Assembly (NCBI RefSeq): GCF_000332095.2
Contig: NZ_KI913949.1
Location: forward strand, 2,396,512 to 2,460,511
DNA from: Leptolyngbya sp. PCC 6406
GTDB taxonomy: Bacteria > Cyanobacteriota > Cyanobacteriia > Phormidesmidales > Phormidesmidaceae
Reading direction: 5' to 3'
DNA: 64,000 nucleotides
Part shown: piece after piece, positions 7,793 through 62,235 of the stretch
How positions within the stretch are numbered: position 1 is the first letter of the stretch
Layout of the letters: each line of letters begins with the position of its first letter
Program-made: the position numbers and the translations under genes
The notes under the pieces: generated by a model
What the model was told of the DNA's origin: nothing
The model's input: the letters and a program-made list of their open reading frames with translations, nothing else
Database searches by the model: none

Positions 7793-8239
7793 ATGGTCAT
7801 GCTATCAACCGCGATCGCACACATGGGCAAAGTGGTTACCACAATCAAAGTTGCCAACTTTGTGGACAAAGTTCTGGCAGAGCGGGGCTTTATTCCCCCA
7901 GAGCAGATACGGGCTCTCAGCGTTGATGAAGTCATTGTCGATACCGGAGCCTCAATGCTCTGCTTGCCCAGCAACCTGATTCAGTCTCTGGGGTTGCGCT
8001 ATGCCGGGGAAGTGGGTACGCGCACCGCCACCGGGGCAGGGACCGCCCGTATCTTCCAAGGCGTGTTGCTAGAGATTGAGGGAAGAGAAGGTACCTTTGA
8101 CTGTCTAGAACTCCCCGATGGCGTCGCAACGCTGTTGGGGGTCATCCCTCAAGAACAACTCGGGCTAGAGCCAGATTTGCAAAACCAATGTTTGCGGTTG
8201 CTGCCTATCACCCCCAAAGAGTCCTACATTTCAATGTAA
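7793..8239 (+). CDS. Clan AA (retropepsin-like) aspartic protease
   Basis: The 148-residue protein contains the motif VDEVIVDTGASMLCLP at about residues 43-58, with the D-T-G-A active-site triplet of retroviral-type aspartic proteases, followed by LGL and a second hydrophobic strand set (ATLLGVIPQEQLGL). The length fits a single-domain enzyme that would dimerise to form its active site. The start ATG at 7793 has a strong AGGAGG; a second ATG six bases on (7799) is possible. The gene faces the caspase-like gene tail-to-tail with about 50 bp between them. The substrate is unknown. Confidence 0.85.
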   Translation: MVMLSTAIAHMGKVVTTIKVANFVDKVLAERGFIPPEQIRALSVDEVIVDTGASMLCLPSNLIQSLGLRYAGEVGTRTATGAGTARIFQGVLLEIEGREGTFDCLELPDGVATLLGVIPQEQLGLEPDLQNQCLRLLPITPKESYISM

Positions 8240-8289
8240 ATAACCCTAAGGGATCTGAAACCGCCTTTTTTTCGTCCACCCCGCATCCC

Positions 8290-11200
8290 CTAGAAAAACT
8301 GCCCCAAGTCGAGATCGGGGGCCAGCTTCCGGGCCTCCTCCAGCTTTGCCGCCGCCGCCCCCCGCTCCCCATCCTGGGCCAGCGCCACCGCCTGGGCCTG
8401 ATAATACCGGGCCAAATCCTGCCGCCCCCACACCTGCTGCTGACAAAACGCCGCCACCTGCCGCTCTAGGTCGCTACGGGGCCGGGTCAAGCACCGCTGC
8501 CGCAACAACCGCAAACTACAGGCATACAACCAATCCCGCCACGTCCCTCCCGGCCACAGGCGCACCGTGCCGTCATCCCCCGCCGACACCACCCGATCCC
8601 CCTGGGGGCTAAAGGCCACCGCCAAGACCCTGCCCGCATGGCCCTGCCAGGGCGCGCCGATCTGACCGCCCGCCAGATCCCACAGGCGCACCGTGCCGTC
8701 ATCCCCCGCCGACACCACCCGATCCCCCTGTGGGCTAAAGGCCACCGCCAAGACCGTGCCCGCATGGCCCTGCCAGGGCGCGCCGATCTGAGTACCCGCC
8801 AGATCCCACAGGCGTACGGTGCTGTCCGCCCCCGCCGAGGCGACCCGATCCCCTTGGGGGCTAAAGGCCACCGCCAAGACCGAGCCCGAATGGCCCTGCC
8901 AGGGCGCGCCGATCTGAGCGCCCTCCAGATCCCACAGGCGCAGGGTGCCGTCAGAGCCCGCCGACACCACCCGATCCCCCTGTGGGCTAAAGGCCACCGC
9001 ATAAACCCCGCTAAAGACCCCACCCGAATGGCCCTGCCAGGGGTTACCGATCTGATTACCTGCCAGATCCCACAGTCGCAAGGTACAGTCCTCCCCTGCC
9101 GAGACCACCCGATCCCCTTGGGGGCTAAAGGCCACCGCCCTGACCCATTCCTGATGGCCCTGCCAGGGGTTACCAATCTGATTATCTGCCAGATCCCACA
9201 GTCGCAAGGTACAGTCCTCCCCTGCCGAGACCACCTGCTCTCCCTGGGGGCTAAAGGCCACTGCATTGATATGGCCGTCATGGCCCCACCAGGGTTTGTC
9301 GAGCTGAGTACCCGCCAGATCCCACAGGCGTACGGTGCCGTCCGCCCCCGCCGAGGCGACCCGATCCCCCTGGGGGCTAAAGGCCACCGCTAAAATCGTG
9401 CTGTCATGGCCCTGCCAGAGGTTATCGAGCTGAATACCTGCCAGATCCCACAGATGCACGGTGCCGTCCGCCCCCGCTGAGGCCACCCGATCCCCCTGTG
9501 GGCTAAAGATCACTGCATTGACATAGCCGTTATGGCCCTGCCAGGGTTTGCCGAGCTGAGTACCCGCCAGATCCCACAGGCGTACGGTGCTGTCCGCCCC
9601 CGCCGAGGCGACCCGATCCCCCTGTGGGCTAAAGGCCACCGCCAAGACCGAGCTCGAATGGCCCTGCCAGGGCGGGCCGATCTGAGCGCCCTCCAGATCC
9701 CACAGGCGCACCGTGCCGTCATCGCCCGCCGAGGCGATCCGATCCCCCTGGGGACTAAAGGCCACCGCCCTAACCCATCCCTCATGGCCCTGCCAGGGGT
9801 CGCCGATCTGATTGCCTGCCAGATCCCACAGGCGCACCGTGCCGTCCGCCCCTGCGGAGGCCACCCGATCCCCCTGTGACCTAAAGGCCACCGCATTGAC
9901 CCATCCCTCATGGCCCTGCCAGGGTTTGCCGATCTGATTGCCTGCCAGATCCCACAGGCGCACCGTGCCGTCCGCCCCTGCGGAGGCCACCTGATTCCCC
10001 TGTGGGTTAAAAGCCACTGCCTCGCCGCCCCCGCCAAGGAATATATCCGAGTGGGCTTGCCAGGGGTCGCCGATCTGATTGCCTGCCAGATCCCACAGGC
10101 GCACCGTGCCGTCCGCCCCCGCCGAGACCACCCGATCTCCCTGTGGGCTAAGAGCCACCCCCCTGACCTCATTCCCATGGCCCTGCCAGGGTTTGCCGAT
10201 CTGATTACCTGCCAGATCCCACAGGCGCACCGTGCCGTTACGCCCCGCTGATACCACTCGATCCCCTTGGGGGCTAAAGGCCACTGCATTGACAGAGCCC
10301 GAATGGCACTGCCAGCGCATGAAGTCGCAGGGGTGGGTGAAGGCCCGATGCAGCACGTCTTGGACAGGGGAAATTACTTCCCCTTGGAACTTGACTTGGC
10401 TGATGGTTACAGCTTGGATGGCCAAGAGGTGTTTTTCCAGGGGATTGGTGTTGGGGGCAGTATTGAGGCGGGTACAAGTTTCCCTCAACTGAGCCTCAGC
10501 CAAGGCTTTTTCTAACGCCGCCACCCGCCCCTGTTCCTGGGCATCGCTGTGGTCAAAAAAGTCCCGCAGCGGCCCCGCTGACACCGCCAACGCCCCCCAC
10601 TGCTCCCGTAGCTCTGCTAGCAGACCCCCCTGCACCAGATAGGCATCATCCTGCCCTTTCTCTTCCCACTCCTGCTGGGCATCCTTCAGCCGTTGCACCA
10701 ACAGGTGCTGAGCCCGGTTTTCCTGCCGCCACTCCACAAACCGAGGCCACCCCCCCATCAGCGCCTCATGGGCCAAATCCAATAGCTCCCCATTTTTTCC
10801 ATCCCGCACCAACAGCCGCCCCGCCACCAATGCCTCCTGCACATCAACCCAGATTTGCTGATCTGGCCCTGCTGCCTGCTGCGCTAGCAACCGCTGCCAC
10901 TCCTGGCGACAGCGGGTATCCACCCCCTCCGGCCCAATCCGCACCAACGCCACACACAGATCCCGACAGATCTGCCGCTCCCGCTCCGTTTTAAGATCCC
11001 GTTGATAAAGGGTCTCCGCCCGCTGGGCCAACGCCCCCTGCAACCGCCCCATGGCTCGATAGGCAGCAACGGTAAGCTGGTGCTGGGTGCGATCTCGCTG
11101 CTGCCACAACTCCGCCAGGGCAAACTCCAGCAACGGCAAACAATTGGGCTCCGTCGCCCCATCATCCAAAATCAACCCCAGCAACTCCCCCGGCACCTGG

Positions 11201-52343: not shown

Positions 52344-53465
52344 TCAACTCGCCACGTCACGGAGCGTAAAATAAAAATCTGTTCCCACGCCTAGTTGAGA
52401 GTCTGCCCAAATTTGACCTCCATGGTTTTCGACAATCTTTTTGCAGGTTGCCAAACCAATTCCTGTGCCAGGGTAGCTGCGAGCTGACTCCGTTCTTAGG
52501 AAAATCTCAAACACCTGCTTTAGATTCTGGGAATCAATGCCGATACCATTATCATGAACGCCAAACAACCAATATTTACCCTCCTTAACAACGGTAATAT
52601 TGACCTGTGGCGTCACCTCAGGCTTTACAAACTTGATCGCATTACTAATCAAATTTTGCACGAGCTGAATCAGTTGGGTTTCGTACCCCATCAGGGTAGG
52701 TAAGGAATCATGGGTTAGGGTAACATTCTGATCTGCGATCGCAATCTCCAAATTCTCCATCACTTGCTTCAGAACAAGATTAAAGTCCACCACCTGAAGC
52801 TCCCGATCCGCCTTGCCAACCTTCGAGTAACTCAGCAGATCCTGAATCAGCATCTGCATGCGACCACCCGCATCATGGATGCGATTCAGGTAATCCACCG
52901 CCACATCATCCAGATGCTCCTGATACTTCAGATGAATAATCTTGGCAAACCCTGTAATACTCTGCAATGGCTGCTGTAAGTCATGGGAAACCACATGGGC
53001 AAACTGCTCCAACTCTTGGTTAGAACGTGCCAGTTCCTGATTGTGCTGGACAAGTTGCTGCTGTAATCGCTGAATGCAAAGCTGATGCTCTATCCGTGCC
53101 AAGACCTCCATTTCCTGAAACGGCTTAGTGACATAATCTACCCCCCCCGCCGAAAAAGCCTGCACCTTATCCAAAGCATCATCCAAAGCACTGATAAAAA
53201 TTACAGGAACATCCCGAGTTCTAGCGTCAGATTTTAGGATTTGGCAGACCCTATAGCCATCCATCTCAGGCATTTTAATATCGAGCAAAATTAAATTAGG
53301 TAAATCTGCCTGTACAGAAGCCAAGGCCCGCTTGCCATTCAATGCCTTTCGCACCTCAAATCCGTGGTTGCTCAACATTGCAGACAAAACCCGCAAATTG
53401 TCTGGTGTGTCATCCACCAGCAAAATGTCACCTTTTACCCCATTAGTCATCGAGTTATTCATCAT
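52344..53465 (-). CDS. Response regulator-histidine kinase hybrid
   Basis: The 373-residue protein begins with a receiver domain (about 15-130; DDTPDN, phosphoacceptor in LILLDIKMPEMDG, lysine in VTKPF), then a coiled coil and a complete kinase core: H-box AHVVSHDLQQPLQSI, N-box LIQLVQNLISNAIKF, G1 VHDNGIGID and G2 GTGIGLATCKK. The H-box DLQQPLQ form is that of phytochrome-type kinases. This is the last gene of the four-gene minus-strand cluster and the only one without the shared C-terminal domain. It lies 42 bp after the gene upstream. Confidence 0.93.
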   Translation of the reverse strand: MMNNSMTNGVKGDILLVDDTPDNLRVLSAMLSNHGFEVRKALNGKRALASVQADLPNLILLDIKMPEMDGYRVCQILKSDARTRDVPVIFISALDDALDKVQAFSAGGVDYVTKPFQEMEVLARIEHQLCIQRLQQQLVQHNQELARSNQELEQFAHVVSHDLQQPLQSITGFAKIIHLKYQEHLDDVAVDYLNRIHDAGGRMQMLIQDLLSYSKVGKADRELQVVDFNLVLKQVMENLEIAIADQNVTLTHDSLPTLMGYETQLIQLVQNLISNAIKFVKPEVTPQVNITVVKEGKYWLFGVHDNGIGIDSQNLKQVFEIFLRTESARSYPGTGIGLATCKKIVENHGGQIWADSQLGVGTDFYFTLRDVAS

Positions 53466-53507: not shown

Positions 53508-55358
53508 TTATTCTTCCACCTGCTGAATGAGAACAATTACTTGATCAAACTTAAAATCCTTCGCCCAGGCAATCAAACTGATGGCCAAAGGGGCAAACTT
53601 TGTCGAGATCTGACTCGCCAAATCAATAATTTCTTGATCATAACCCCTGATCGCCGCCTGTTTCAGTGCCGTTCTCCAGGCTAGTGGCATCTGAGCCAAA
53701 GCAACCGTCAGAGACTGATCCAAAGTCTCCTCCCCTGAAGGCAATTCATCACTCAACAATAACCAATCCAGATCCCATTGCAGATTCTCCGTAGAGCCCT
53801 CAGGCACCCCAGCCTTAGCAATCTCCAGTAGATTGTTAATCAACCCTAAGAGCCGGTTTCCATTGCGGTGCAGCACCATCAACTGCTCTTGATGCTCTGG
53901 TGACAACGCCAGACTCGTCTCAAATCCCTGGGCGACCCCAAGAATAGCATTCAGCGGCGTTCTTAATTCATGGCTCATAGCCGCCAGAAACTCACCCTTA
54001 GCCTGATTAGCAGATTCCGCTAGCGTTTTCGCCTCATAAAGATCAGCGGTTCGTTCAGCAACCCGATCCTCTAATTCCAGAAAGACCCTATTAAGTTGAA
54101 TCGCCATCTGGTTAAAAGATTCTGATAAATCCTCAAACTCCCGAATACCCTGAATATCAATGCTTGAATCTAGTTCACCTTGAGCAATCTCCTGACTGAT
54201 CTGAACTAAACATTGAATTTGGTGAGAAATCCAGCGTGATGTAATCAGCCCTAAAAAAATAGCCGATGTTAACGACAGTAAACACAGCAGAATCGTCATG
54301 CGAGTGTTTGCATTAATTTGTTCCATAAAGTCAGACTCTGGAACCACCACGACAACTAACCAGTCTAAGCCATAGTTATCTTGCCAAGGCGTAATCTGTA
54401 CGAATTGCTGTTGTCCAGCTACAGAAAAGCTCAGTTGCTGAGTCGTTTGAATTTGGGTTAAATCCGTAAATTTACGGGTAATATAATCAGCAGTCTCCTG
54501 AATCAAGGGATTTCGACTTTTGCTAGGATACATGCGTTCAATATTATTGTCTGCATCTAGCTCAAAAGGTAATTCAACATCCGAACTAGCCACGAGCAAT
54601 CCATTGCGTTCAAGAATAAAAATTTCTCCCGTAGGACTCAAGTCTAGAGCTTGAAGAAAATCTCTGAGATTTGATAAAATTAAGTCAACACCAATTACTC
54701 CCCATAGTTGTCCTTGTTCATTATAAATAGGATAGCTAGCAGAAATTGAAAGTACCTCTGGCTTATCAGACCACTGGTAGATATTACTCCAGATGGGTTG
54801 TTGGGCCTCAACGGCATCGGCATACCACTCCTCTTTAATCACCGACACATCATTCATAATGATTTCCCTCAGCCCAGCCCGATCGCCCGCATCATTAGGT
54901 TCATAAATTGACATTTGATCGAGATCAGGCTGACGAGTTTCATTAATAACCAGTTCATTCTCTTCTAAACGCTCAACCCCAATAAACTCACCTTGGGGAT
55001 TAGCAAAATTAATATAATCCACACCAAAAATCTGCATTTCCCGATGGAAAGTACGTCCTAAACTATCAAAATCTTGCAAATCCAGAATCCCAATTTGAAT
55101 GGCATCCATATTAAGTTGATTGATTTGATGGGGGATCAGCAGTTGATCTTCTAAGTGATGAGTCACTTGATCACTGGTTTTACTACGAAGCTGGGTTGCT
55201 AAATCATGGACAGCTTTATGGCCATTACGCAGGGAAATCCAGCCTGTTATACCTACAGCAGCTAGAACTTGCAAGACAAACGGAACCACTAAAATCAGGC
55301 GTAGAGGTATCCCACGAAAGACTTGATAAATGAGTGGCCGGGATACAGGTAAACGCAT
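53508..55358 (-). CDS. Cache-HAMP-HisKA membrane protein lacking the ATPase domain
   Basis: The 616-residue protein has a transmembrane helix (about 19-42), a large extracytoplasmic dCache domain (about 45-340; contains WGVIGVDLILSNLRDFL), a second helix (about 350-375), a HAMP linker and a HisKA domain with H-box [16 protein letters not shown]. Where a HATPase domain is expected there are only about 75 residues, followed directly by a C-terminal domain (about 545-616) shared with the next two genes upstream. It cannot autophosphorylate alone; it may receive phosphate from, or act as a sensor for, the co-transcribed kinases. It begins 1 bp after the preceding gene. Confidence 0.92.
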   Translation of the reverse strand: MRLPVSRPLIYQVFRGIPLRLILVVPFVLQVLAAVGITGWISLRNGHKAVHDLATQLRSKTSDQVTHHLEDQLLIPHQINQLNMDAIQIGILDLQDFDSLGRTFHREMQIFGVDYINFANPQGEFIGVERLEENELVINETRQPDLDQMSIYEPNDAGDRAGLREIIMNDVSVIKEEWYADAVEAQQPIWSNIYQWSDKPEVLSISASYPIYNEQGQLWGVIGVDLILSNLRDFLQALDLSPTGEIFILERNGLLVASSDVELPFELDADNNIERMYPSKSRNPLIQETADYITRKFTDLTQIQTTQQLSFSVAGQQQFVQITPWQDNYGLDWLVVVVVPESDFMEQINANTRMTILLCLLSLTSAIFLGLITSRWISHQIQCLVQISQEIAQGELDSSIDIQGIREFEDLSESFNQMAIQLNRVFLELEDRVAERTADLYEAKTLAESANQAKGEFLAAMSHELRTPLNAILGVAQGFETSLALSPEHQEQLMVLHRNGNRLLGLINNLLEIAKAGVPEGSTENLQWDLDWLLLSDELPSGEETLDQSLTVALAQMPLAWRTALKQAAIRGYDQEIIDLASQISTKFAPLAISLIAWAKDFKFDQVIVLIQQVEE

Positions 55359-55359
55359 A

Positions 55360-58300
55360 TCACCGAGAACCGCTATATAGAAAGGTTTCGGTCAGATGAA
55401 TAATATCATCAAACCGAAAATGGTCAGTCCAAGCCGTTAAAGCTTGAGCTAGGGGAGTACAATCTGGGGGGATTTTCTCAATCAGTAGGGCGATCTGGCG
55501 ATCCGATCCCCTCACCGCTAGATGATGAAGTTGTCGAACCCAGTCCCTGGGCATTTGAGCAAGGTGAATCCTAAAATCCAGGGAATCTGATGGAATCAGG
55601 GAACCCTGAGCGGAGACTTGTCCCGGATAGGAAGCCTCTGTGTAGAGGTAAACCACGCCGAGATGTTGTGCCAATTTCAGCAGCAGTACATTTTCCTGAA
55701 TCGGCTTACGTAAAAAGTCATCACAGCCAATCGCCGTCGCATTGAGTTTGGTCTCCTCAAAAACACTGGCCGACAAAGCGATAATTTTTGTCATAACCCC
55801 AGAGTCTTCGTTAGAAGATAATGCCGCCGCAGTTGGCAGTTCGGAGTGAGGCGGGCTAGATTGCTCCAGAGCTCGAATTACTTGAGTTGCTTCAATACCA
55901 TCCATAACTGGCATGCGGATATCCATCAGGATGAGGTGAGGATGCCACTGCCGCCATATATGGATGCCCTCTTTCCCGTTTCTCGCTTCACGCACTTCAA
56001 ATCCTAGAGGGACTAATAAGCTGACTAACACTTGACTGTTTTCCCACTGGTCTTCAACAATCAGAAGACGATAGGTGGGCTGATTGGGGGCTAGAGAGAT
56101 CACTACTTGCGGCCCGTTGCCTAGGGCTAAATCCGTGGTGGAGGCTACCGTTGCCTGGATATCAAATGAGAAGTGGCTGCCCCGATCAACCGCGCTATTA
56201 ACCTGAATCTCTCCCCCCATGAGATGAACAAACTTACGGCTGATTGCCAACCCTAAGCCAGTCCCTTCATTAGCCCTCTGTCCAGCCCGAGCTTGGGCAA
56301 AGGACTGAAATAGAGAGTTGAGTTCCTCTGGAGCAATACCAGAACCAGTATCTTTAACCTCAAAGGTAATCGGGAGCACAAGCAATCCCCCATCCTCTCC
56401 TCGTTGCTGATCAGCCTCGGGAGAAATACTAACCCGCAACGAGACCTGCCCCACATCCGTAAATTTAATGGCATTGTCGAGAAGATTAAGCAGCACTTGA
56501 CGTAATTTCCCGGCATCGGTGATGATATATTGAGGAACTGTCGGAGCACAGTCAAAGATCAACTGAAGCTGCTTAGCTTGCGCTTTAATATAGAGCATGG
56601 TCTCTAGCTCATCCAGAAGATTGTAGAGATCAAAGCTAGAGGAATTAAGGCAGACTTTGCCTGCCTCAATCTTAGACATTTCCAAGACATCATTAATTAA
56701 TTCCAGTAAATTCTGACCGCTGCGGTTAATAATCGCTAGATGATTTTGACTTTCTAGGCTTAGACTCTGATCATGACCCATGACCTGAGTAAACCCAAGG
56801 ATTGCATTGAGAGGTGTTCGTAACTCATGGCTCATGTGAGCCAGAAATTCACTCTTGGCTCGGTTAGCAGCCTCCGCAGCATCCTTCGCCTTTGCCAAAG
56901 CGAGAGACTGTTCCTGGGTTTGAGCTAAAAGCTGAGCGAGTATAATCTGAGCCTGCTGGCGCTCTTGGTATAAAGACAGGGCAGAAACCGCTGCCCAAAG
57001 TAGACTAATTTCTAACTCATCCCAGTCCTTAAGAGTTTCGCAATTGTCAAAACTAATACATCCAAAAAATTCTCCTCTGACCATTATTGGAAAAATCAAA
57101 ATGGCTAAAATCCCCTGGGATTCTAATATCAATCGTTCTGACTCTGGCAGATCACTGGCCATCTCATAAACGCTTTTCCCCTGGGCTAGGGGCATCGTCC
57201 AGCGTGGAACTAAGTCTTGACAAGAGAAATCATACTGGGCGAAATTGCCAGTCCTAGGTGAAATTCCTGGGGCACACCACTCTACGCGCTGACTCCCTAG
57301 CAGAGTGCCCGCATCATCTCGATAATTTTCAAACAAATAAACTCTAGAAGCCCCAGAAGCTAGCCCCAATTGTTTCAGAATTTCATCATACTGAACTTGT
57401 GTACTTTGGGAAGATAGTAACAATTGCTGGATTTTAACTAGCATTGCTAGATATCGCTCTCGTTTTGCCAAAGAAGATTCTGACTTCCTAACATGGGTTA
57501 TATCTGTACTGATTCCGAGAACCAATCTTGATTTACCTTCTACATCTTGAATAGGCTTTTTGATTGTTTGAAAATAACGTATCTCACCAGAAGTGGAGGT
57601 AACTATCTCCTCAAACAGACTGGAAATACCAGTGCTGATTACCTTGCGATCGTCTCGTAAGAAACGTTCGACTTCAGCCAGATTTGGATTAAAGTCCGCA
57701 TCGGTTTTGCCAATTAAATTTTCTACAGTGGTGCCATAGATATCGGCAACTGCTTGATTAGCTAGAACAAATTGCCCTTGCCAGTCTTTTGCAAAGATTA
57801 AATTAGGAGGACTGTCAATGATGTTCCGTAAAAACTCCTGCTGCCTTTTCAAGGCTGCTTCAGTATATTTGCGACTGGTGACATCCCTTTGGATTCCAAA
57901 ATGGCCTGTAATTCTACCTTGATCATCATAAAGACAGATGTAATCACCTTCTATCCAGATGGGAGTACCATCTAGCTTTCGCTCCTGGGTTTCAATGTGC
58001 AAATGGCCCTGATCGAAAAAACGCTTCCATATTTGCCGACCATTGGCTAAATCATGGGCGAATAGATCATTAGGTGTTAGGCCGATAAAACCTTCCAAAC
58101 TAGCCCCATACTGTTGGAGCATTGAATCGTTAACTTTCGTTATATGCTGATGCTCAAATACATAGTCTAATAGGGCATCCTGATCGATAGCACCCTCCCA
58201 AGCAATGGGCTGATCTATCATCATAAAGAAAAAACCATCTAGGGACTGAGAAAAGAATAGTTCTAGTTGCTGCTCTGCTTTTTGGAGATCTTTCATGACC

Positions 58301-58788
58301 GCTTTATAGTGGCCAATTTCCTGTTTTATAATCAGATTTTCTTGCTCTATCTGTTGATATGTAGAATTATTCTCAACGGGCTCATGAAACTGATTGAGCT
58401 TCCAACTTAGTTTGGCTAAGCACTGGGATGCGGTCAGAACAGCAATCGGTTGCTCGTAATTATTTAGAATAAGTAGAGTTGTGATGTGGTAACGATTAAA
58501 TAGAGGGATTAAGGCTTCTATATTAGTGAAGTCACTTTCGTGTAATACTAATTCAGGGTAGGTGAGAACTGTTGATAGATCCAGGGTTCTGAGATCCTGT
58601 TCAGAGGTTAGTAATCCCACTACGGTGTGACTATTTAGGCACCCTATGAATTGACCATTCTGGGGTTCAACAATGAGAATATAATCTTGCTTGACTTGGT
58701 ATAAATAAGCAATTGCGTCTGTTAATTTTGCATCTACTGGGAGCGTATAAAATTGACTTTGAATGCCATCAAAAAGTGAATTTTTCAT
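55360..58788 (-). CDS. CBS-PAS-PAS-GAF hybrid histidine kinase with receiver and shared C-terminal domain
   Basis: The 1142-residue protein has, in order, a CBS-domain pair (about 5-125), two PAS domains (about 185-310 and 315-435), GAF (about 445-610), a coiled coil, HisKA ([17 protein letters not shown]) and HATPase (N-box [12 protein letters not shown]2 [13 protein letters not shown]), a receiver domain (about 905-1050; phosphoacceptor in [13 protein letters not shown]) and a C-terminal domain (about 1065-1140) shared with the two flanking genes. The protein is cytoplasmic. Its ATG overlaps the stop of the upstream gene by 4 bp (58785-58788). The CBS pair suggests nucleotide or redox sensing. 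Confidence 0.93.
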
Positions 58789-60386
58789 AGTCTTGGATCA
58801 CTTTTTTGCCTTAATGCCTGCTGTGTTATGGCGACAATATTATCGAACTGAAAGTTTCGATTCCATTCCACCAACACCCTGACTAAGGACCGATGACGAG
58901 CTGGGACAGTCTGAAGCAAAGTAACAATCTGATGATCAAATCCTTTAGTGGCTGCTTGATGAAGCTGGAAAATCCAATCTGCAGGTAGTTCTGACAGCTC
59001 TGTTTGGATAGCAGACAGAATTGGTTTTTCAATGAGAGTGGCAGAAAAATCAGAGCCGGGTAATGGCATCTGGAGTGAAAGGACGGGTTGTGTCTTGCTT
59101 AGATCTATTTCTGGGCTCAGATCTGACATGTTTTTCGGGAAAGTTACCAGAACATGGAACCGTACAATCGTGCCCTGATTGAGTACACTATCGATGGTGA
59201 TATCGCCTCCCATTCTCTGTACAAACTGACGACTAATGAAAAGTCCTAACCCTAACCCTCGTTCCGATTTTTGCCCTGACTCAGTTTGGGAAAATGCCTG
59301 AAATAGCTGCCTCATTTCATGGGCAGCAATACCAATGCCTGTATCCTCAAGTTCAAAATACAGGGCTATAGGATCAGATAAGTCTGGACTATTACGACTA
59401 TTACCCTGACTAGAGTTTGAATGTAGATTGTCCTGAGATCCTAGACTTACTCGCAGATTAATGTGCCCCGCCGAGGTAAACTCCACTGCGTTTTCCAACA
59501 GATTCATCAAAATCTGTCGAAGTTTGCTGTCATCGATATGAATATATTGAGGTGAGCTAGGGGCACAGATCAGATTAAGTTTTAGTCCTTTTTCTTGGAC
59601 TTGTGGATACCATTGATAGATGATTTCAGATAGAAAATTATGAAGATTAATGTCTCTCTCATTCAGGGAAATTTGACTAGAACTAATATGAGTCACCCTG
59701 AGAATATGGTTAATTAATTTCAGTAAGCGTCTAGCTGCTGTACTAATGCTGCTGGCATAATCTTGGTGCTCTCCAGATAGGGCGTGATCGCCCTCCATGA
59801 GACCAGCAAACCCAAGGATTGCATTTAGGGGGGTGCGTAGCTCATGACTCATCTGGGCTAGAAATTCACTTTTGGCATAGTTCGCAGCTTCTGCGATAGC
59901 CTTAGCATCTTCTAGGAATACTTGAGTTTGTTTGTGCTCTTTGATCTCCTGCTGAAGAGATTTGTTTTTCTCTATGAGTTGATTTTGAAGTTTGCGAATA
60001 GTAATTTGATTGTTAATTCGTGCGAGAACCTCCTCAATTTGAAAAGGCTTAGTAATATAGTCTACCCCCCCCATTTCAAAGGCTTTGACCTTGCCAGCAG
60101 CATCATCTGCGGCGCTGATAAAAATAACGGGAATTTCTTTTGTTACGACATTGGCTTTTAACTGCCGACAAACCTCGTAGCCATCCATTTCAGGCATCCG
60201 AACATCGAGCAGAATTAGGTCGGGCAATAAATGGTTAAGGCTCACGAGGGCCATTTCACCATTGGTGACACAACGAACCTTATATCCACACCCAGTCAGA
60301 TTCATCGATAATATCCGCAGATTGTCTGGGGAATCATCAACAATCAGAATATTTCCTGTAGCAAGATTGCTGGGGTTAGTCGCCAT
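58785..60386 (-). CDS. Receiver-HisKA-HATPase hybrid with shared C-terminal domain
   Basis: The 533-residue protein has an N-terminal receiver (about 12-128; phosphoacceptor in [13 protein letters not shown], lysine in ITKPFQ), a coiled coil, a kinase core (H-box [18 protein letters not shown]-box [12 protein letters not shown]1 DTGIGIA, G2 [13 protein letters not shown]) and the cluster's C-terminal domain (about 470-530). It is the first gene of the four-gene cluster. Its upstream region is occupied by a truncated IS630 transposase gene in the same direction, ending about 50 bp before its ATG, so transcription may start in the IS. Confidence 0.93.
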
Positions 60387-60438: not shown

Positions 60439-60954
60439 CTAGCTCTTGGCTATGGTGCGCCAAGAAGCTCTTGATCTTTGCTTTTTTGCAGCTATCGCCT
60501 CAACATCAGCTTTGGGGTTTACCTTGCTGGTCTTTTTCCAACTGATGCCTGCGGCTTCAAAGAGGTCGTAGTAACTTTGTTTGGATTCATAGGCCACGTC
60601 ATAGGTTTCGGCGAGATGGAACTCTAGTTCGCCCAAGGTCCAGATATCTTTGCTCTGCAACCACTTCAGCACGCTATCGCGTTGCTCTGCTGTTAAGTAA
60701 CTCTGACGTCCTTTGTGGCGGGGCTTGAATCCAGTCACCCCTTCGCTTTCATAGGTCTGACGCCAGTTGCTCAATGAGCCTAGGGAGACATCCAGGATGT
60801 TCACTACTTGCTCGTAGCTATACCCTTGATAGAGCAGTTTAACTGCTATGGCTTTTCTGACTTGGCGACCATCCCGCTCTTGACGAATAAAGTCTTGCAG
60901 CTCTTCTATGGCAGTCCTATGGGGAGACTCTTTTAGGGGGCTGGGCAGTACCAT
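60439..60954 (-). pseudogene. IS630-family transposase, N-terminal part only
   Basis: The 171-residue frame has the IS630 helix-turn-helix (AIAVKLLYQGYSYEQVVNIL and SLGSLSNWRQTYESEG) and the end of orfA (SWKKTSKVNPKADVEAIAAKKQ). A run A-AAA-AAG near 60485 is the typical slippery site; in the shifted frame the family sequence goes on as KIKSFLAHHSQELETDDLRG and then stops matching near 60415. The DDE catalytic part is missing. It cannot transpose by itself. Confidence 0.85.
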
Positions 60955-61173: not shown

Positions 61174-62235
61174 CTAATATGCGACAGGAACTTTGCTGGA
61201 CTGTGGCGATAGTAATGCAGTTACGGATTGGCTATCAAGGGGTTTAGAGAAGTAATAGCCCTGCATTTTAGTACAGCCTGCCCTCTGTAAAGCCGTCAGC
61301 TCTTCAGGGGTTTCAACGCCTTCGACAATTACATCTAAGCCTAGATTCCGGGCTAGCAAACAAATTGTCTTACTAATTTGCCATTGTTGGCTTTGGACAA
61401 AAGAACGATCAATCTTTAGTCCGTCAATGGGTAATTCTTGAAGGCGGCTTAAGCAAGAATAACCCGTACCAAAGTCATCAATATAGAGCTGAATTCCCAT
61501 ATCTTGAAGGGCCAACAAAACTGGAATAGCAGTTCGATTGTTATTGATCAAGGTACTTTCTGTGATTTCGATTTTCAAGGTGTTGGGGAGAATTTTTGTG
61601 GTTTCCAGGATTCTCTGAACTTCTGGAATTAAATCGGGTTGAAAAATTTCTGCTACTGAGAGGTTAACACTCATAGATAGGGGTGTCTGATTGGCATAGG
61701 CTTGCTGCCAAATATGGAGCTGATGACAAGCTTGCTCCAGGATCCAAATGCCCAATTTATGGATGCATCCCAGCTTTTCTGCCAGAGGAATAAAAACACT
61801 AGCTGGAATGGAAGTTGTATCGGATTGAGGCCAGCGGGCTAGCGCTTCAAAGCCAATAATGTGATTGTTTTTCATTGAGACGATGGGCTGATAAGCCAAT
61901 TCAAACTCTTGATGAGTTAGGGCTTTGTATAAATTATTCTCAAGCTGTAATTGGTCAACCATTGTCCTTGACAAAATTGTCATGGGTAAGGTGGGCTTGT
62001 CTTCGAGGGTTTGGGCAAGACGGCTGAGGCGATTTACGTTGTTAATTGCGATCGCCAATAATTGTTGTCCTTCATGAGATAAAGATCCTAGTTGACCTGT
62101 ATGGAGCAGACCTAATGCTCCTTTAATGGACGTGAGTGGTGTCCGGATTTCGTGGCAAATAAATAAGGCACTATTCCCTGATAAGTCTGTCAATTGAGGT
62201 TGCTCACGGTTGGGTTCTTTAATATCTTCAGACAT
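61174..62235 (-). CDS. HisKA-EAL fusion, c-di-GMP phosphodiesterase
   Basis: Residues about 20-75 are a HisKA-like domain with an H-box FICHEIRTPLTSIKG (H28). Residues about 100-345 are an EAL domain with all catalytic residues: E130 (FEALARW), N191 (SVNLS), E223 (KIEITES), D253-D254 (DDFGTGYS), K274 (LKID), the glutamate in VEGVETP and the glutamine in MQGYYFSKPL. There is no HATPase, GGDEF or receiver domain. The protein should break down c-di-GMP and may be switched by phosphorylation of H28 by another kinase, perhaps from the adjacent cluster; that is inference. Confidence 0.92.
   Translation of the reverse strand: MSEDIKEPNREQPQLTDLSGNSALFICHEIRTPLTSIKGALGLLHTGQLGSLSHEGQQLLAIAINNVNRLSRLAQTLEDKPTLPMTILSRTMVDQLQLENNLYKALTHQEFELAYQPIVSMKNNHIIGFEALARWPQSDTTSIPASVFIPLAEKLGCIHKLGIWILEQACHQLHIWQQAYANQTPLSMSVNLSVAEIFQPDLIPEVQRILETTKILPNTLKIEITESTLINNNRTAIPVLLALQDMGIQLYIDDFGTGYSCLSRLQELPIDGLKIDRSFVQSQQWQISKTICLLARNLGLDVIVEGVETPEELTALQRAGCTKMQGYYFSKPLDSQSVTALLSPQSSKVPVAY

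Follow-up and report, generated by a model that had tools for sequence, protein, structure and literature searches.

The proteins encoded by three consecutive genes in the analysed window (i.e. the whole 64,000-nucleotide stretch of Leptolyngbya sp. PCC 6406) share a C-terminal domain that is new to naming, with no entry in Pfam or NCBIfam, and that, judging by the phylogeny of the kinase core, is a stable hallmark of one hybrid kinase family. Our preferred reading, which we hold tentatively and at close to an even chance, is that this domain (hereafter CTD, the last ∼65–70 aa common to P1, P2 and P3) may be a five-helix docking arm for a cognate partner receiver (REC) domain of the type carried by a fourth protein, P4, on which the inputs would converge. 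Somewhat more doubtful is the wider proposal that such a docking domain would pair hybrid kinases of cyanobacteria, some Chloroflexota and Burkholderiales with a dedicated REC subfamily, as a wiring device at the place of a phosphotransfer (HPt) domain, and that in the window several inputs, including that of an ATPase-less kinase, would lead to one output.

The four genes are co-directional, in the order P3, P2, P1 and P4 (Table 1); the CBS-like N-terminus of P2 is a weak match. As the initial annotation had placed it, the CTD follows a kinase or receiver, i.e. REC in P2, HATPase in P3 and directly HisKA in P1. P4 orthologs (57–75% identity) are kept at the same operon position, and orthologs of P3 and P1 are 51–58% and 46–63% identical, respectively. 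Stenomitos frigidus has a run of five CTD genes followed by P4, the Scytolyngbya version of the operon contains several more CTD genes, and the operon is shorter in Phormidium sp. LEGE 05292 and others; the terminal placement of P4 is kept in Stenomitos frigidus, Scytolyngbya and others. Going by these orthologs, the operon arrangement is old.

Table 1. Operon genes and their domains, with positions in the window.
Feature	Position	Strand	Basis
P3: REC-HisKA-HATPase-CTD, 533 aa	58785..60386	-	Pfam scan; operon's first gene
N-terminal REC of P3	59994..60350	-	Same REC subfamily as REC of P4; A9 profile 207 bits, whole-genome search
CTD of P3, aa 459-528	58803..59012	-	Profile matches
P2: CBS-like-PAS-PAS-GAF-HisKA-HATPase-REC-CTD, 1142 aa	55360..58788	-	Pfam scan
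CTD of P2, aa 1075-1139	55372..55566	-	Domain layout; AlphaFold2 model
P1: dCache-HAMP-HisKA-CTD, 616 aa, without HATPase, without REC	53508..55358	-	Pfam scan; orthologs
HisKA of P1, H-box intact	53814..54008	-	Pfam scan; orthologs
CTD of P1, aa 548-615	53514..53717	-	Profile matches
P4: REC-HisKA-HATPase, 373 aa, without CTD	52344..53465	-	Pfam scan; last gene
REC of P4 (P4-type)	53073..53426	-	Partner REC subfamily member; 209 bits

HATPase is absent from P1 not only in the window but also in Stenomitos, Cyanobacteria bacterium RM1_2_2 and Phormidium LEGE 05292, with the H-box kept, while the Scytolyngbya ortholog retains HATPase. The same DHp-CTD layout also occurs in other CTD proteins at three loci (L095, L082 and L109). 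A conserved membrane sensor with only a DHp domain suggests trans-phosphorylation inside a complex. A second DHp-only protein is encoded just upstream of the operon (window positions 61174–62235), namely an EAL protein that carries a HisKA segment (FICHEIRTPLTSIKG) at its N-terminus and lacks HATPase. The 171-aa ORF between this gene and the operon (60439–60954) has HTH_33, HTH_32 and HTH_23 matches and resembles the beginning of an IS630-type transposase. At locus L178, the CTD of a P1 ortholog lies past a stop, on a separate overlapping ORF (7944–10034 and 9983–10396).

We then compared the CTD copies with one another. The initial annotation had described a common terminal pattern in the three proteins; the relationship holds, and the pattern as written is only approximate. 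The copies of P1, P2 and P3 share 29–41% pairwise identity, and a whole-genome search with the P2 CTD finds the P3 copy at E 4e-12 and the P1 copy at E 3e-9, so that on these scores the homology is real and far beyond chance. Deviations from the pattern are (i) MP instead of LP in P1 and P2; (ii) AW and LK in P1 where DW and LH were given; and (iii) LHxxA in P2. The W of 'L-x2-W' is characteristic of a subfamily (12/42 sequences of a diverse set). By contrast, the first W (the Trp of MPxxW) is invariant in all 42, and the three window copies are among its carriers. The remaining conserved positions are mostly hydrophobic or small, and none of the invariant residues in these 42 sequences is polar, which argues that the CTD may act by binding rather than by catalysis or phosphotransfer of its own.

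AlphaFold2 (58 sequences; P2 copy) predicts five helices (pLDDT 89, pTM 0.78), in agreement with the short helical bundle expected earlier. In a REC-CTD model (pTM 0.67) both domains are confident, the linker is unstructured (below 50) and no fixed REC-CTD packing is predicted; we read the CTD as a probable independent domain on a flexible tether. Pfam and NCBIfam scans found no family match for the CTD of P1, P2 or P3, which bears out the absence of an assigned domain, and searches of the open-access literature found no description of it. At E≤0.001, the CTD model matched neither a PDB structure (Foldseek) nor an entry of a viral fold library, and the weaker PDB hits did not include an HPt.

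HPt domains (PF01627) resemble the CTD in being small, all-helical and located at the C-terminal end of hybrid kinases, but the CTD has no phospho-histidine motif and the two never occur together in our set. The Pfam Hpt model matches neither the three proteins nor any of 58 CTD members, the best His column of the CTD alignment contains His in 17/42 sequences (Lys at that place in P1) without an HxLKG motif, and hhalign against real HPts from four of these genomes gave probabilities of 0.5% (type I) and 1.1% (type II; both types are described below). We therefore rejected HPt identity for want of profile similarity, a conserved His and a fold match, and a known domain such as HPt, the outcome that would have overturned the initial annotation, was sought with Pfam, hhalign and Foldseek and not found. 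Ankyrin identity was also rejected: the LHxAAxxG helix pair weakly matches designed ankyrins, and more weakly with a fuller profile, but the five-helix topology differs from the tandem helix-turn-helix repeat fold and the TM-score to DARPins is 0.31–0.33. There are only two HPt matches in the source genome. One of them belongs to a REC-HPt-REC protein near CTD kinases at L245 (5051–6607); in two other genomes, a REC-HPt-REC protein also lies near CTD kinases, at L177 (9027–10634) and L247 (5612–7186).

The CTD is C-terminal without exception, on DHp proteins. The domain preceding it in 112 proteins is REC in 95, HATPase in 8 and HisKA in 7, i.e. the CTD persists without a cis REC or a cis HATPase. 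Within an 80-locus set, DHp (HisKA) is present in 77/77 untruncated CTD carriers, six apparent exceptions being split ORFs, and no carrier has an HPt. A tree of the DHp-ATPase core of 110 kinases from three genomes, a quick search with support by SH-aLRT only, places all CTD kinases in one clade consisting of sister type I and type II clades (SH-aLRT 92 for type I+II, 96 for type I and 99 for type II), and this clade contains every CTD in the tree and no kinase without one. On the strength of this strict co-inheritance with one kinase clade, the CTD is better described as a family hallmark than as a freely shuffled module.

Homologues outside the operon do exist. Profile searches reveal nine type I copies in the source genome, all terminal on DHp proteins, and the CTD is present in 53 of the 59 relatives sampled, in 87/292 genomes sampled across the phylum and in 15/301 genomes of a Chloroflexota sample, for which a Chloroflexia contig was the entry point. 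The CTD is thus not particular to the three proteins, but a trait of a whole kinase family and mostly encoded singly. Plasmid records carrying type I CTDs are all cyanobacterial. Three further hybrid kinases of the source genome, initially chosen as controls, turned out to terminate in a diverged CTD, type II, which is also found in two Paraburkholderia plasmids; an approximate consensus of the proteobacterial version had no match in plasmids. Because the iterated type II HMMER profile drew in type I and may have drifted, homology of the two types rests on a separate hhalign comparison (96% probability, E 1e-9). Phyla beyond these were sampled unevenly, and the true range of the CTD is therefore probably wider. 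Irregular forms include the following: (i) overlapping ORFs for HisKA and for HATPase-REC-type II CTD at L183 of the source genome (3974–5404 and 5254–6495), apparently a split kinase or a frameshift, precede a P4-type REC gene; (ii) a 90-aa ORF at L177 (5792–6061), in which the beginning of a P2-like CBS region is joined to the end of a CTD, is a remnant of P2 after internal deletion; and (iii) the CTD kinase of a contig labelled Candidatus Gracilibacteria (L117) is very similar to a Hydrococcus one (L110) and is probably cyanobacterial contamination of the metagenome-assembled genome.

We also analysed the genes downstream of CTD kinases. A gene starting with REC often follows immediately, and the ORFs frequently overlap. 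We rejected the idea that a REC gene of whatever kind comes next more often after CTD kinases than after other hybrid kinases, as the difference is not significant (17/36 vs 8/28, p 0.2). Scored with a profile of the P3/P4 REC, however, the 57 distinct RECs encoded immediately after CTD kinases all reach 129–244 bits, compared with 65–106 bits (n=10) after other, CTD-less hybrid kinases and 17–84 bits for 12/13 RECs after non-hybrid kinases; we take the remaining one, at 159 bits, to be itself the beginning of a CTD kinase. By this measure it is the kind of REC, not the rate of REC genes, that sets CTD kinases apart. Two whole genomes contain 22 such P4-type RECs and 119 others, separated by a score gap (143 vs 125 bits); the P4 type has a DDTPDNL motif. 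By our own tally, 12/22 P4-type RECs but 0/119 others lie directly downstream of a CTD kinase (Fisher 8e-12); of the rest, four are N-terminal domains that we assign to CTD kinases, one is encoded divergently from a CTD kinase, and five lie in other places. Their outputs include histidine kinase, GGDEF, GGDEF-EAL, PAS and nucleotide cyclase. In Paraburkholderia, too, the gene that follows a kinase with a type II tail encodes a P4-like REC-kinase. Mirror-tree statistics on 27 non-redundant type I pairs of neighbouring genes give a partial r of 0.36 (p 0.001, n=27) between CTD and partner REC distances with the kinase core and cis REC removed, while kinase core and partner REC give r 0.01. This is suggestive of co-divergence of CTD and partner REC beyond that of the core and cis REC.

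These patterns are consistent with a mechanism in which the CTD, on its flexible linker, would hold the cognate P4-type REC of a neighbouring protein (REC-kinase, REC-GGDEF/EAL or REC-cyclase) beside the DHp histidine, and the phosphoryl group would pass from DHp to this REC with no need for an HPt. In the window, the P4-type REC of P4 (and that of P3) may be the docking site for P3, P2 and P1, so that several inputs would join on P4. With a DHp but no ATPase domain of its own, P1 would depend on phosphorylation in trans inside such an assembly. Three counterpoints should be weighed: (i) as CTD kinases form one clade, the DHp could by itself determine REC specificity, and the CTD could be no more than inherited along with it; (ii) the genes for CTD and partner REC are neighbours, and their co-divergence could stem from recombination at the junction between them; and (iii) a REC gene lies downstream of only about half of the CTD kinases (17/36).

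The initial annotation had suggested that the tail docks the three proteins to each other or to a common partner. A common partner fits best, given the REC subfamily and the co-divergence, while docking among P1, P2 and P3 cannot be the general role of a domain that is mostly encoded singly and is a hallmark of the whole family. We accordingly favour docking of the partner REC, followed by assembly through CTD-CTD contacts and then by intramolecular control. An assembly domain binding other CTDs, by which the operon kinases would form a hetero-oligomeric multikinase complex in which P1 would provide the membrane anchor and P2 or P3 would phosphorylate the P1 DHp in trans, is rather unlikely. 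It would explain three adjacent CTD gene pairs in the source genome against 0.5 expected (p 0.014), the runs of 4–6 CTD genes in Stenomitos and Scytolyngbya, and P1-type proteins with DHp and CTD but no HATPase in at least four genomes. However, the majority of CTD genes are solitary, the adjacency test is driven by one operon and explicable by tandem duplication, and CTDs within the operon (29–41% identical) are no closer to one another than to their orthologs (about 47–61% for P3).

Control of the CTD's own kinase, e.g. by folding back on the DHp/ATPase domain, with the P4-type REC link reflecting clade ancestry, seems improbable. The strict co-inheritance with one kinase clade and the constant presence of DHp would be expected of such a regulator, but the CTD is kept where HATPase or REC is missing, the model (of REC and CTD only) has no fixed packing, and the co-divergence of CTD and partner REC exceeds that of the kinase core. 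A degenerate HPt, or another known domain below the reach of sequence searches, is very improbable: the CTD occupies the HPt site and does not co-occur with HPt in our set, but hhalign gives 0.5% against HPt and 96% between the two CTD types, no His is invariant and the PDB search found no fold match at E≤0.001.

In CheA, the P2 domain is a tethered, non-catalytic receiver-docking domain that holds the receiver for the kinase. Docking of the partner REC by the CTD would work likewise by analogy, although we found no sequence or fold relation and the CTD is all-helical and C-terminal. In the GacS/RetS/LadS network, several hybrid kinases act on one output, and co-evolution predicts partners (PMC8175716, PMC5992135). 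The CTD operon is similar in that several hybrid kinases may serve a single output, but differs in its DHp-only member and dedicated REC subfamily. To our knowledge, no such tail has been described for the GacS, RetS or LadS kinases.

Cyanobacterial hybrid kinases are numerous and their partners mostly unmatched so far. As a mark of one kinase family from which the REC subfamily could be predicted, the CTD would allow orphan kinases to be matched from sequence to orphan REC-GGDEF, REC-cyclase or REC-kinase proteins; deletion of the tail would be a single test of pair recognition without an HPt. The CTD merits a Pfam entry, as present annotation ends before it. Elsewhere in the source genome, P4-type RECs also occur on GGDEF/cyclase proteins with no CTD kinase nearby (L339, 7146–8810 and 8923–10449; L340, 5969–8422), and these proteins are candidate orphan partners of orphan CTD kinases.
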